This document shows, one piece after another, positions 32,985-36,561 of a stretch of 36,561 bases of DNA; position 1 is the first letter of the stretch; each line of letters opens with the position of its first letter. Below the pieces are notes generated by a model. The model was not told where the DNA came from. It saw nothing but the letters and a program-made list of their open reading frames with translations, and searched no databases. The stretch covers positions 1-36,561 of the forward strand of contig CAIZQU010000112.1 in the NCBI GenBank assembly GCA_903935205.1, given 5' to 3'. This DNA comes from an uncultured cyanobacterium. GTDB lineage: Bacteria; Cyanobacteriota; Cyanobacteriia; PCC-6307; Cyanobiaceae. The translations under genes were made by a program, and so were the position numbers.

Positions 32985-34561
32985 ATCACCCCACCCGCGA
33001 CAGCGGCGTCCTGCTCCATCCCACCTGCTTCCCGTCCCATCCGGGCAGCGGCACCCTGGGCGCCGACGCCAGGGAGTGGATCGCCCTGCTGGGACGCGAG
33101 GCGGTAGGCGTCTGGCAGCTGCTGCCCCTGGCCCCGACCGATGGCACCGGCTCCCCTTACAGCTCCCCCAGTGGTTCAGCCCTCAACCCCTGGCTGATCG
33201 ACCCCGATGACCTGGTGACGGCCGGCCTGATCGACCCGGTCGACCGGGACCAGCTGCCCGGCGGACCCTGCGACCGGTTGGATCCGGATCTGGCCAGCCG
33301 GAGGGCGGAGGCGATCGCCAGGGCCCTCGGCCGCCGCTGGGCGGAGCAACCGGCGGCGCGGCAGCAGGCCTTCCAGCGCTGGAGCCGCAGCCAGTCCCAC
33401 TGGCTGCGCGCCCATGCTCAGTTCATGGTGCTGCGCCGCCTGGAGCAGGGCCGACCCTGGTGGCATTGGCCCGCTCCCCTGGCCCGCCGCCAGAGGGACG
33501 CCCTGGCCCTGTTTGAACAGGAACACCGCCAGTCCCTGTTGGAGGAAGCCCTGCTCCAGTGGCAGCTGCAGGAGCAATGGCAGGCCCTGCGACGGGAGGC
33601 CCAGGCCCGTGGTGTCCTGCTGCTCGGCGATCTGCCGTTCTATGTGGCCCACGACAGCGCCGATGTCTGGTGCCGTCCCCATCTCTTCTCCCTTGGTCTG
33701 AACGGCAGCCTGATCAACCAGAGCGGTGTGCCGCCGGACTACTTCTCGGCCACCGGCCAGCTCTGGGGAACACCCGTTTACACCTGGCGCCGCCACTGGC
33801 TCACGGGGTTCCGCTGGTGGTTGGCGCGACTGCAGCGCCAGCTGGAGTTGTTCGACCGTTTGCGGCTCGACCATTTCCGCGCCCTCGAGGCCTACTGGTG
33901 CGTGCCCGGCGCCGACAGCACCGCCGAGAACGGCCATTGGCGCCCCTCACCCGGCCGGGTGCTGCTGACCCTGTTGCGCTGGCGCTGCCGGGGCCGCCGG
34001 CTGCTCCTTGACGACGGGCGGCTGCCCCTGATCGCCGAGGATCTCGGTGTGATCACCCCACCGGTGGAGGCCCTGCGGGATCGCTTCGGCCTGCCTGGCA
34101 TGAAGGTGCTGCAGTTCGCCTTCGATGGCGCCGAGGACAACCCCTATCTGCCCGCCAACTTCCGCGGCAGCCGCTGGGTGGTGTACACCGGCACCCACGA
34201 CAACGCCACCAGCCGCGGCTGGTGGGAGAGCCTGGATCAGGCCGGCCGGGACAGGCTGGAGCGCGTGGTGGGGGCGGCGATCACCGCCCCGAGCTGGCAG
34301 CTGCTGGAGCTGGCCCTGGCCTCCGAGGCGGAGCTGGCGGTGGTGCCCCTCCAGGATCTGCTGGAACTCGGCGATGAGGCCCGCTTCAACACCCCTGGCA
34401 CGGTCGGCGCCAACTGGAGCTGGCGGTTGCAGCGTCCGCTGGCCTCCCTGGCCGGCCCGGTCCATGGGTTCGGGGCGATGGCGGCCCGCTACGGCCGCGG
34501 CACCGCTGCCGCACCCACCGGCGCAGCGGTGCCGGCAGGGGGGGCGGCCGGTGGCGGGTAG
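32981..34561 (+). CDS. malQ: 4-alpha-glucanotransferase (amylomaltase, GH77)
   Basis: 526 residues from a GTG at 32981 overlapping the bciB stop (GTGA). It moves alpha-1,4-glucan segments between chains in glycogen/maltodextrin turnover. GH77 motifs: GVLLHPTCFPSHPGSGTLG at the start, WQLLPLAPTDGTGSPYSS, GDLPFYVAHDSADVW, RLDHFRALEAYW with the Asp nucleophile, IAEDLGVITPPVEALRDRF with the catalytic Glu, and YTGTHDNATSRGWW. The normal end of the family is near MAARYGR; the remaining Ala/Gly/Pro tail of about 20 residues is encoded by a GC-rich inverted repeat and overlaps the convergent RodZ-like gene by 73 bp. Confidence 0.95.
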   Translation: MNHPTRDSGVLLHPTCFPSHPGSGTLGADAREWIALLGREAVGVWQLLPLAPTDGTGSPYSSPSGSALNPWLIDPDDLVTAGLIDPVDRDQLPGGPCDRLDPDLASRRAEAIARALGRRWAEQPAARQQAFQRWSRSQSHWLRAHAQFMVLRRLEQGRPWWHWPAPLARRQRDALALFEQEHRQSLLEEALLQWQLQEQWQALRREAQARGVLLLGDLPFYVAHDSADVWCRPHLFSLGLNGSLINQSGVPPDYFSATGQLWGTPVYTWRRHWLTGFRWWLARLQRQLELFDRLRLDHFRALEAYWCVPGADSTAENGHWRPSPGRVLLTLLRWRCRGRRLLLDDGRLPLIAEDLGVITPPVEALRDRFGLPGMKVLQFAFDGAEDNPYLPANFRGSRWVVYTGTHDNATSRGWWESLDQAGRDRLERVVGAAITAPSWQLLELALASEAELAVVPLQDLLELGDEARFNTPGTVGANWSWRLQRPLASLAGPVHGFGAMAARYGRGTAAAPTGAAVPAGGAAGGG

Positions 34562-35460
34562 GCGTAGGCGCCGGGGGTGGCGGGCGCCTGGCTGAGGGGG
34601 GCGCCGCGCCAGCGAACCGCCTCGGCCGCGGGCGGTGGATCCAGGCGCAGTTGGAAGGGAGGCAGCAGCGGCAGGCTGAGCTGGCCCTGCACCGCTTCCA
34701 GGTTGATGGAGCTGGCCCTGGGGCTTCTGACCTCCACCCGGGTGGGTTCCGCCAGGCGGAGCTGCAGCTCCCCGAGGCTGAGATCGGGACCGGGCCCCAT
34801 CGCGCTCTTGCGCAGCTGGATCAGCCCCTGGCCGGAGGCGGCCTTGCTGAGGGGCCGCAGGTCGGGATAGGCCTCAAGCACCGCCCCCTTGCTGGCGGTG
34901 GCTGGGCTGGCGGTCCGATCCAGGGCAGGGATCGGCCTTGAACTGAGCAGGCCGCGGCTGGCGATCCGGAACAGCTGCAGGTTGAGCAGCTGGATCAGGC
35001 CAAGGGTCACCAGGGCATAAAGGACGGTGCCCTGCCAGCTGGTGAACACATCGATCGAACCCGGTGTGAACCGGCGCAGCAGGGGCTCGCGACCACTGCC
35101 CAGCGGCTGCTGGCTGCGGCGGGGTGGCAGGGCGGCATCGAGGCTGCCGGAGGCCAGCCCGAGATGGCGTTCGAGCAGGGGCAACATCGCCCGCAAATAG
35201 GCGGGTTCAGGCAGACGATCCCGCCAGCCGCGCTCCAGGGCCTCAATCACGGCCGTGCTGATCCTGGTGTCCTGGGCGAGCTGGCGCAGGCCCAGACCCC
35301 GCTCCTCACGGGCGCGACGCAGCAGCCGACCCGCCTCCTGCAGGGGATCGGCGGCCTGTTCAGGCCCCTTCCCCTGGGAAGACGGAGCCCGATGGGGGCG
35401 GGGCCAGCGCTGCCCGAGCCAGCGGGAGGCCTTGGCGGGAAGGGAGAAAACCTGGCGGAT
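34489..35460 (-). CDS. RodZ-like helix-turn-helix membrane protein (start codon unclear)
   Basis: The frame is open from the stop of the upstream pseudouridine synthase gene (TGA 35473-35475) to 34489. It encodes an HTH_25/RodZ-type domain: EAGRLLRRAREERGLGLRQL, then AQDTRISTAVIEALERGW, then LPEPAYLRAMLPLLERHLGL. A membrane segment follows (VLYALVTLGLIQLLNLQLF) and then an extracytoplasmic part with a beta-rich block (LSLGELQLRLAEPTRVEVRSP) and a Pro-rich tail. The first ATG/GTG/TTG in frame is GTG 35250, inside the HTH domain, so the true start must be upstream. I mark ATC at 35460 (GAGG 10 nt before it) as the best guess; a CTG just before EAGRLL is the alternative. RodZ anchors MreB in rod-shaped cells; whether this protein does so is inference. 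Confidence 0.72.
   Translation of the reverse strand: MRQVFSLPAKASRWLGQRWPRPHRAPSSQGKGPEQAADPLQEAGRLLRRAREERGLGLRQLAQDTRISTAVIEALERGWRDRLPEPAYLRAMLPLLERHLGLASGSLDAALPPRRSQQPLGSGREPLLRRFTPGSIDVFTSWQGTVLYALVTLGLIQLLNLQLFRIASRGLLSSRPIPALDRTASPATASKGAVLEAYPDLRPLSKAASGQGLIQLRKSAMGPGPDLSLGELQLRLAEPTRVEVRSPRASSINLEAVQGQLSLPLLPPFQLRLDPPPAAEAVRWRGAPLSQAPATPGAYAYPPPAAPPAGTAAPVGAAAVPRP
34498..34534. terminator. Perfect 12-bp inverted repeat in the malQ / RodZ-like overlap
   Basis: CGGCACCGCTGC (34498-34509) and GCAGCGGTGCCG (34523-34534) form a perfect 12-bp stem with a 13-nt loop. It lies inside the overlapping 3' ends of two convergent genes and, being symmetric, could stop transcription from both sides. 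No U-tract is present on either strand, though a run of Gs follows on the + side. Confidence 0.55.
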
Positions 35461-35472
35461 GGCGGGGAAGCC

Positions 35473-36267
35473 TCAACCGGCGGGCGATGGGCCGGCCCAT
35501 TCTCCGCCAAGGACCTCGCCGGCGGTGACCTGGCGCCAGCGTCCCTCCGGCAGATCGTTGAGGCGCAGGGGGCCGATCGCCACCCGCAGCAGATCCTGAA
35601 CGGGATGGCCGAGCAGGGCGGCGGTGCGGCGGATCTGCCGGTTGCGCCCCTCGCGCATCACCAGTTCGAGGCGCGTGGCGGCTGGGCGGCGGGCGATCAC
35701 CCGCAGCTCCACCGGCTGGCTGGGGAGACCCTCAAGGGGAAGACCGGCGGCCCAGCGCTCCAGGCTGTCGCCGTTGGGATGGCCCTCCACCCAGACCCGG
35801 TAGGTGCGGCGATGGCCATAACGGGGATGGGTGAGCTTCAGGGTCAGGGCGCCATCGTTGGAGAGGAGCAGGGCCCCGCGGCTGTCGGCATCGAGGCGGC
35901 CGACCGGATGGAGACCGGAACCCCGCCGCAGGGGCGGGGGCAGGAGATCGAGAACCGTCGGCCTGCCCTGGGGATCGCGGCAGGTGCAGAGCACCCCGAC
36001 CGGCTTGTGCAGCAGCAGGGTGAGCGGGGCGGGTGCGGCGGCGAGGGGGCGGCCATCGACCTGGATGCTGTCGCGGCGGGGGTCAACCCTCTGACCCAGC
36101 AGGGCCGGACGACCATTGACCCGCACCCGGCCCCGGCGGACCAGCTCCTCGGCCCCGCGGCGGGAGGCCAGTCCGGCGGCGGCGATCAGCTTCTGCAGCC
36201 GCTCGCCCCGGCCCTCAGCGGGGCCAGGGGAGGGATCCAGCGGAACGGGGGAGGGGAAGGAGGACAC
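35473..36267 (-). CDS. Pseudouridine synthase, RsuA/RluB family
   Basis: 264 residues from a GTG at 36267. An N-terminal S4 RNA-binding domain (RLQKLIAAAGLASRRGAEELV, GRVRVNG, GQRVDP) is followed by the RsuA-type catalytic domain: LTLLLHKPVGVLCT, the catalytic motif HPVGRLDADSRGALLLSNDG with the Asp nucleophile, HRRTYRVWVEG, and VMREGRNRQIRRTAALLGHPV. These enzymes make single pseudouridines in 16S or 23S rRNA; RluB/E/F-like or RsuA-like target cannot be decided. The RodZ-like gene follows 12 bp later in the same frame and probably the same transcript. Divergent from the sigma-factor gene. Confidence 0.92.
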   Translation of the reverse strand: MSSFPSPVPLDPSPGPAEGRGERLQKLIAAAGLASRRGAEELVRRGRVRVNGRPALLGQRVDPRRDSIQVDGRPLAAAPAPLTLLLHKPVGVLCTCRDPQGRPTVLDLLPPPLRRGSGLHPVGRLDADSRGALLLSNDGALTLKLTHPRYGHRRTYRVWVEGHPNGDSLERWAAGLPLEGLPSQPVELRVIARRPAATRLELVMREGRNRQIRRTAALLGHPVQDLLRVAIGPLRLNDLPEGRWRQVTAGEVLGGEWAGPSPAG

Positions 36268-36351
36268 GGTCTGGGGAGGTCAGCATCAGTCTCCTGCGCC
36301 ACGGGGCGGCTGCGGGGGCAATGCGGAACGAGTCCGGGAAAGGATGGTACT

Positions 36352-36377
36352 GTTACGAAACAACTTGGTTTCGTAAC
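36352..36377. promoter_or_regulatory. Perfect 9-bp inverted repeat upstream of the sigma-factor gene
   Basis: GTTACGAAA (36352-36360) and TTTCGTAAC (36369-36377) are separated by 8 bp; the second arm ends 16 bp before the ATG at 36394. The centre-to-centre distance of 17 bp fits a dimeric repressor operator, and it could equally form a hairpin over the start region of the mRNA. TGGTACTGT just before it (36346-36354) resembles an extended -10 box, in which case the operator would cover the transcription start. Confidence 0.65.
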
Positions 36378-36393
36378 CCACCCTTTCGCGACC

Positions 36394-36561
36394 ATGCCCT
36401 CCCTCACCCTGTCCGGATCCGCCGATCACACCCCTGCCGGCGACCTGGTGCGCTCCTACCTGCGCGACATCGGTCGGGTGCCGCTGCTCAGCCATGAGCA
36501 GGAGATCACCCTGGGCCGCCAGGTCCAGGAGCTGATGGCGATCGAGGAGCTGCGCGAGGAG
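36394..36561 (+). CDS. Sigma-70 family RNA polymerase sigma factor (group 2-like), 3'-truncated by the window
   Basis: The first 56 codons of a sigma factor from the ATG at 36394 to the window end. After a short lead the region 1.2 signature is clear: DLVRSYLRDIGRVPLLSHEQE, then ITLGRQVQELMAIEELREE. The lead is short and lacks the long acidic region 1.1 of the primary RpoD, so this is most likely one of the non-essential group 2 factors (SigB/C/D/E-type) that cyanobacteria use for light, stress and night responses. Which one cannot be said without the rest. No good ribosome site is visible. The palindrome at 36352-36377 lies directly upstream. Confidence 0.88.
   Translation, partial: MPSLTLSGSADHTPAGDLVRSYLRDIGRVPLLSHEQEITLGRQVQELMAIEELREE

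Follow-up and report, generated by a model that had tools for sequence, protein, structure and literature searches.

A conserved palindrome ahead of a picocyanobacterial group 2 sigma factor gene as a predicted variant of the SufR operator

What a perfect palindrome does a few bases ahead of a sigma factor gene is the question raised by the end of this contig. The window (the whole stretch of DNA that was analysed, 36,561 nucleotides) comes from an uncultured cyanobacterium, and the palindrome lies at positions 36352–36377, with no strand assigned. It reads GTTACGAAAC-AACTTG-GTTTCGTAAC in the window sequence (26 bp), and its 3' end is 16 bp from the sigma ATG (36394), which bears out the place given in the original prediction. 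The inverted repeat is perfect, as had been claimed, although the arms are 10 bp long and the spacer 6 bp, and not 9 and 8 bp, respectively. When the 9-bp pattern was searched with up to 3 mismatches, the window gave one match, compared with a mean of 0.00 in 100 shuffles, in agreement with the earlier view that a chance origin is unlikely; the same pattern was found in a single place in the organism's own 3.82-Mb genome. Taken together, the inverted repeat, its chance level, its conservation and a shared core in the suf region lead us to annotate the site as a predicted SufR operator.

The feature following the palindrome (36394–36561, forward strand) belongs to a group 2 sigma-70 gene, whose first 56 codons lie in the window before the contig ends. 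Sigma-70 region 1.2 was detected in this fragment (PF00140, 2.3e-13), and the truncated copy scores 44.9 bits against TIGR02997 across its 56 residues. A complete relative (L014) reaches 425.8 bits (cut-off 384.5), which places it in the cyanobacterial RpoD/SigA-like family, and the three sigma copies scored all belong to TIGR02997. A SigD-type assignment was rejected, as L014 (409.3 bits), L197 (418.6 bits) and L199 (410.0 bits) are all below the NCBIfam SigD cut-off of 524 bits. Assemblies break soon after the start of this sigma copy (copy A) at a number of loci, the window, L002, L012, L017, L023, L024 and L025 among them, perhaps because of its near-identity with a second copy (copy B). 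On the other side of the palindrome lies a divergent pseudouridine synthase gene (35473–36267, reverse strand; TIGR00093, 170.7 bits, cut-off 109.3). The two genes do have the intergenic region in common, as originally proposed, but the sharing of the site is probably not functional, since in 10 of 18 other-genus copy-A loci the site is retained with no synthase match within about 1.2 kb upstream. The synthase gene is probably not a target.

The palindrome was looked for in related genomes, as had been suggested. With up to 3 mismatches, the 10-bp pattern is present somewhere in each of 37 same-genus genomes (ahead of the sigma gene, the suf region or both) and in none of 23 genomes from other families of the class, while a reversed control pattern gave one match each in 9 of these 60 genomes. 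By reading, the loci of 30 relatives (L002–L031) contain the sigma gene in 25 cases and the suf region in 5. A table of the site at the sigma gene covers 64 relatives (those of 68 rows with no more than 5 mismatches, the other four being read as copy B) and shows an invariant T at positions 2 and 3 and an invariant G-A-A at positions 6–8 of the left arm; in the right arm, G at 17, T at 19–20 and C at 21 are invariant. Of the two inner bases of the arms, one is C in 62 relatives and the other G in all 64, and all six spacer positions are variable. As many of the sigma loci were picked through a match to the motif, sets chosen by protein similarity are fairer. Such a set of 30 sigma loci, picked by protein similarity alone, has the site in 26 and lacks it in 4: it is present at all 25 loci adjoining the synthase gene, and among the 5 without this neighbour it is found in one (L183, 5 mismatches) and missing from four. 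Conservation ahead of orthologous sigma genes is thereby confirmed, which supports the proposed operator for a dimeric repressor. Out of 20 loci chosen by map position, 18 were taken as copy A, all of which have the site (1–4 mismatches), and two are copy B, neither of which does. A further protein search with 24 matches gave the site in two, which adjoin the synthase gene in two distant genera and have 5 mismatches in one case and 4 in the other; 14 of the 22 matches without it are paralogues at 43–47%, for which the stretch read may be intragenic. Finally, 8 same-genus genomes were re-searched by the neighbour gene, which was found in 5 and gave no match in 3; four of the five have the site with 3–4 mismatches, and in the remaining one the contig ends ahead of it.

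The family has two close sigma copies, A and B, of which only one appears to carry the site. In copies read as B the best matches have 9–11 mismatches, which is the chance level. Both copies were read in six genomes (G000, G008, G063, G133, G168 and G172), in each of which the site stands on one copy only; where a genome has a single copy, its labelling as B depends in part on the absence of the site itself. The link between site and sigma gene is not universal: in seven genomes that carry sufR and only one sigma copy of this type, the site is missing ahead of that copy. A quick tree of 89 proteins groups the copies of the family in one clade, within which A and B intermingle by lineage; copy A needs four label changes, and many inner branches are weak. 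This intermingling suggests gene conversion or repeated duplication. Copy B (L197, L218, L337) has a similar upstream block of its own, CGTTTACGTTTCTTAG...CTTTACA, unlike that of copy A. Control of copy B by an RpaB-type HLR1 element was also considered and set aside, a simple pattern having matched none of 8 upstream regions.

In relatives, a second site is located between the divergent ftrC-sufB genes (ftrC corresponding to PF02943) and a winged-helix gene, which was identified as SufR (TIGR02702, 210.1 bits, cut-off 178.8). The organism's own sufR (C143:3612–4211) scores 200.8 bits, also above the cut-off; of 14 control genomes, 12 also give a weak hit to this model, and the cut-off is exceeded in one. 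The core motif is found at C143:4698–4717, between sufR and ftrC, and the own suf site in this sufR-ftrC/sufB intergenic region (L063) reads CTAACGAAAC-N6-GTTTCGCAAT. According to the available sections of a review, SufR is a homodimer with [4Fe-4S] clusters that binds CAAC-N6-GTTG and represses sufBCDS as well as sufR itself (PMC13421787). The C-terminal part of the own SufR contains cysteines (CSVMRIAEAFPIVCDQEL...HSCGF) which, by analogy, may be the cluster ligands. A sequence search for a SufR structure returned none; the matches, to winged-helix proteins and to unrelated ones, were all weak.

The distribution of the core was compared with that of sufR across the order, in a sample of 150 genomes. 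RCGAAAC-N6-GTTTCGY was found in 73 of these, which span 16 of 25 genera; summed over the 150 genomes, there are 112 forward matches and 8 of the reversed control. SufR was detected in 96 genomes, of which 95 were counted as sufR-bearing after one partial hit (20.7 bits) was set aside; 83 of these 95 calls reach the curated cut-off, and the other 12 fall just below it (171–175 bits). The exact core was found in 73 of the 95 sufR-bearing genomes and in none of the 55 others, although the latter are close kin with small genomes from few genera, so that the co-occurrence rests on few independent losses and not on 55 cases. Among 65 distinct exact sites that were read (loci L032–L102, mostly from the 150-genome sample with a few from the same-genus set, and not all of the 112), 37 stand before suf, 25 before the sigma gene, one before chlL and two elsewhere. 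The sites of G127 and G114 (L075 and L102), which lie inside open frames, are probably due to chance. As for the 22 sufR-bearing genomes without an exact core match, the suf region was read in 14, and a diverged site with 2–5 mismatches is present there. Five genomes (G102, G135, G136, G147 and G193) have the exact core before the sigma gene only, their suf site differing at 3–4 positions, and three loci with 3 mismatches (L093, L094 and L096) contain no suf or sigma gene. A named scan with a stricter pattern gave 66 records, of which 45 are cyanobacterial (Cyanobium, Synechococcus, Vulcanococcus, Aphanothece and others); 41 of these sites precede a sigma gene, identified by alignment in 36 and by reading to the contig edge in 5, and 4 precede suf. 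None of the 21 non-cyanobacterial records matches any of the five query proteins. In related records among these 21, the same palindrome recurs with an identical or almost identical spacer, namely in Stenotrophomonas (L104, L113, L114, L158), Hyphomonas (L129, L138), Henriciella (L119) and at L156, where it is possibly the operator of an unrelated regulator. A phage origin was rejected: the pattern occurs in three viral contigs, where the sites look by eye like coding DNA, and none of these contigs matches the five query proteins.

The window site does not conform to the published CAAC-N6-GTTG consensus, as it has AAAC-N6-GTTT instead, and it is for this reason classed as a variant. Outside the family, 29 of 30 loci have CAAC-N6-GTTG within 350 bp before sufR, and 20 of them have it at least twice (0.005 expected per locus by shuffling), while the GAAAC-N6-GTTTCG form is absent from all 30. 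Within the family, none of 20 suf loci (L219–L238, chosen mostly for a missing exact core at suf) contains CAAC-N6-GTTG, while 15 have the relaxed form GAAAC-N6-GTTTC; two more have this form further off, before ftrC, and L221, L237 and L238 have more diverged forms. The window site is itself an inverted repeat of GAAAC-N6-GTTTC. As it retains the AAC-N6-GTT core and its spacing, with a changed outer base in the half site, the motif is best read, from its sequence, as the form that the SufR site takes in this family.

A putative extended -10-like element, TGGTACTGT, is present at 36345–36353 on the forward strand. It had been described as lying directly before the palindrome; the element is indeed there, but it overlaps the site, sharing two bases with its left edge. 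TGGTA, TGATA or TGTTA ends 1–2 bases 5' of the operator in 60 of the 64 relatives and stands 15 bases 5' of it in three, while one has no such element. A scan found neither a consensus sigma-70 promoter nor a terminator. Given the overlap, and judging from the position of the -10-like element only, transcription would start at 36358–36362 on the forward strand, within the operator. Further upstream, 5' of the -10 element, a CGGA-N5-TCCG inverted repeat (36324–36336, no strand assigned) was noticed; visual inspection, without counting, also shows it in many loci of the genus and in one from another genus (L176). It is missing from other loci and might not belong with the palindrome, and could be a candidate upstream activator site.

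Altogether, the palindrome is a real and conserved site, and we consider it very probable that it is a variant SufR operator placed on the promoter of the sigma gene. This reading draws on the recurrence of the core in the sufR–ftrC interval of the organism's own genome, on the exact sites being chiefly before suf (37) and sigma (25) among the 65, on all 73 core-bearing genomes having sufR against 0 of 55 genomes without it, on CAAC-N6-GTTG occupying the same place outside the family (29 of 30), and on the site being found in 26 of 30 similarity-picked sigma loci, before one of two paralogues. That the palindrome could be a chance match or a functionless repeat is scarcely worth entertaining, with an expectation of 0.00 in the window and, across the 64 tabulated relatives, arms that are retained around a variable spacer; such conservation, in our judgement, has already refuted it. 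More substance can be given to a hairpin formed by the sigma mRNA within its 5' leader, which would control how translation starts or how stable the message is; a 5' hairpin affecting initiation was raised originally. The RNA at 36350–36420 is predicted to fold into a stable 10-bp stem (-15.5 kcal/mol, z -2.85), and a comparison of 50 distinct sigma sites reveals some double changes at pairs 1 and 4 which preserve pairing, although a symmetric DNA site would give these too. Against this, pair 5 is broken in 20 of the 50 sites with zero compensating changes, which makes a hairpin unlikely, and the outermost pair (pair 1) is broken in 23. The motif also stands ahead of ftrC and sufR at differing distances, positions 34000–36561 have no match in Rfam, and a start inside the palindrome would leave most messages without part of the left arm. 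On balance, the substitution pattern at the stem pairs fits the half sites of a protein, and the hairpin option is disfavoured as very improbable.

The protein could also be another dimeric regulator, which would control both the suf region and the sigma gene in place of SufR. The assignment to SufR is a prediction from sequence, the half site is one base off the published motif, and some sufR-bearing genomes have diverged sites only, all of which would be compatible with such a regulator. Beside sufR, however, the site replaces CAAC-N6-GTTG with the same AAC-N6-GTT core and spacing, and the exact core is absent from all 55 genomes without sufR. We regard another regulator as improbable, though less so than the hairpin, and have good confidence in predicting that the repressor is SufR.

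As an operator for SufR, the palindrome would work as follows. A SufR dimer carrying [4Fe-4S] clusters would bind the half sites ACGAAAC/GTTTCGT and cover, at the group 2 sigma gene, both the expected start and the margin of the -10 element, thereby blocking RNA polymerase. Loss or reduction of the clusters, under iron shortage or oxidative/high-light stress, would lead to the release of SufR, and the sigma gene would be induced along with sufR and ftrC-sufBCD. The supply of Fe–S clusters would in this way be coupled to a transcription-wide regulator. We infer repression from the position of the site and from the suf case, and the signal for release from reviewed work on Synechocystis; binding by SufR and the genes that the sigma factor would then transcribe are likewise predictions.

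A third target is possible. When CGAAAC-N6-GTTTCG was searched in the own genome with up to one mismatch, it was found in three places, all of them exact, ahead of sigma copy A, suf and chlL, while the reversed control gave two matches. The chlL gene, coding for a subunit of dark protochlorophyllide reductase, was identified by TIGR01281 (444.9 bits), and the opposite neighbour of its site looks, by reading, like chlB. The site itself is at L064:2016–2041 (C86:95715–95740). Of the 34 chlL genes above the cut-off in the genus, 30 were read, and 8 of these, our own included, have a related palindrome with 5–6 mismatches at a similar distance (L064, L300, L301, L302, L304, L305, L312 and L328); the other 22 loci show 8–11 mismatches. 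The evidence for chlL is weaker than that for the sigma gene.

Extending the SufR reading to the picocyanobacterial family members with the site, we find it rather probable, with less assurance than for the operator itself, that a duplicated group 2 sigma gene is under direct SufR control and conveys the Fe–S status to a transcription-wide programme. The two copies would make nearly the same protein, perhaps through gene conversion, under different switches, and some members would have added chlL, which codes for an Fe–S enzyme of chlorophyll synthesis, to the regulon. If this is true, SufR would stand at the top of a larger regulon, global transcription in Cyanobium, Synechococcus and their relatives would be tied to iron and redox status, and there would be a reason for keeping two nearly identical sigma copies. 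The reading also supplies an operator sequence specific to the family and a regulon open to direct testing, made up of suf, one sigma gene and, in part, chlL.

Regulation by cluster status has a parallel in IscR of Escherichia coli, an Fe–S protein which regulates isc, suf and further targets; we know of no sigma gene among these, and SufR comes from an unrelated protein family. In the available sections of the literature on the SufR regulon and on Fe–S and sigma factors, SufR is described as a repressor of Fe–S assembly genes (and ftrC), and none reports a sigma gene controlled by it (PMC13421787, PMC7058544, PMC6034842, PMC7393227, PMC12274634, PMC2662882, PMC11979508, PMC4755962, PMC2758279, PMC3516471); RegPrecise was outside this scope, and an earlier computational prediction is possible. 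The regulator is known, whereas the target and the variant of the motif appear to be new. A repressor site at the start of a group 2 sigma gene, as predicted here, resembles the HLR1 site bound by RpaB at rpoD3 of Synechococcus elongatus PCC 7942, which, in the available text, is located just downstream of the start and released under stress (PMC2758279), but the regulator, the motif and the signal differ, and the sigma copies tested here are below the SigD cut-off. A close comparison is with the SufR operator of Synechocystis PCC 6803 (sufR-sufBCDS, CAAC-N6-GTTG), with which the family's sites have in common the AAC-N6-GTT core, the dimeric symmetry and the placement between sufR and ftrC/sufB. 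They differ from it in the half site, which is ACGAAAC and not CAAC, in the suf region, where mostly one site was found and not two, and in the additional predicted target, the sigma gene.
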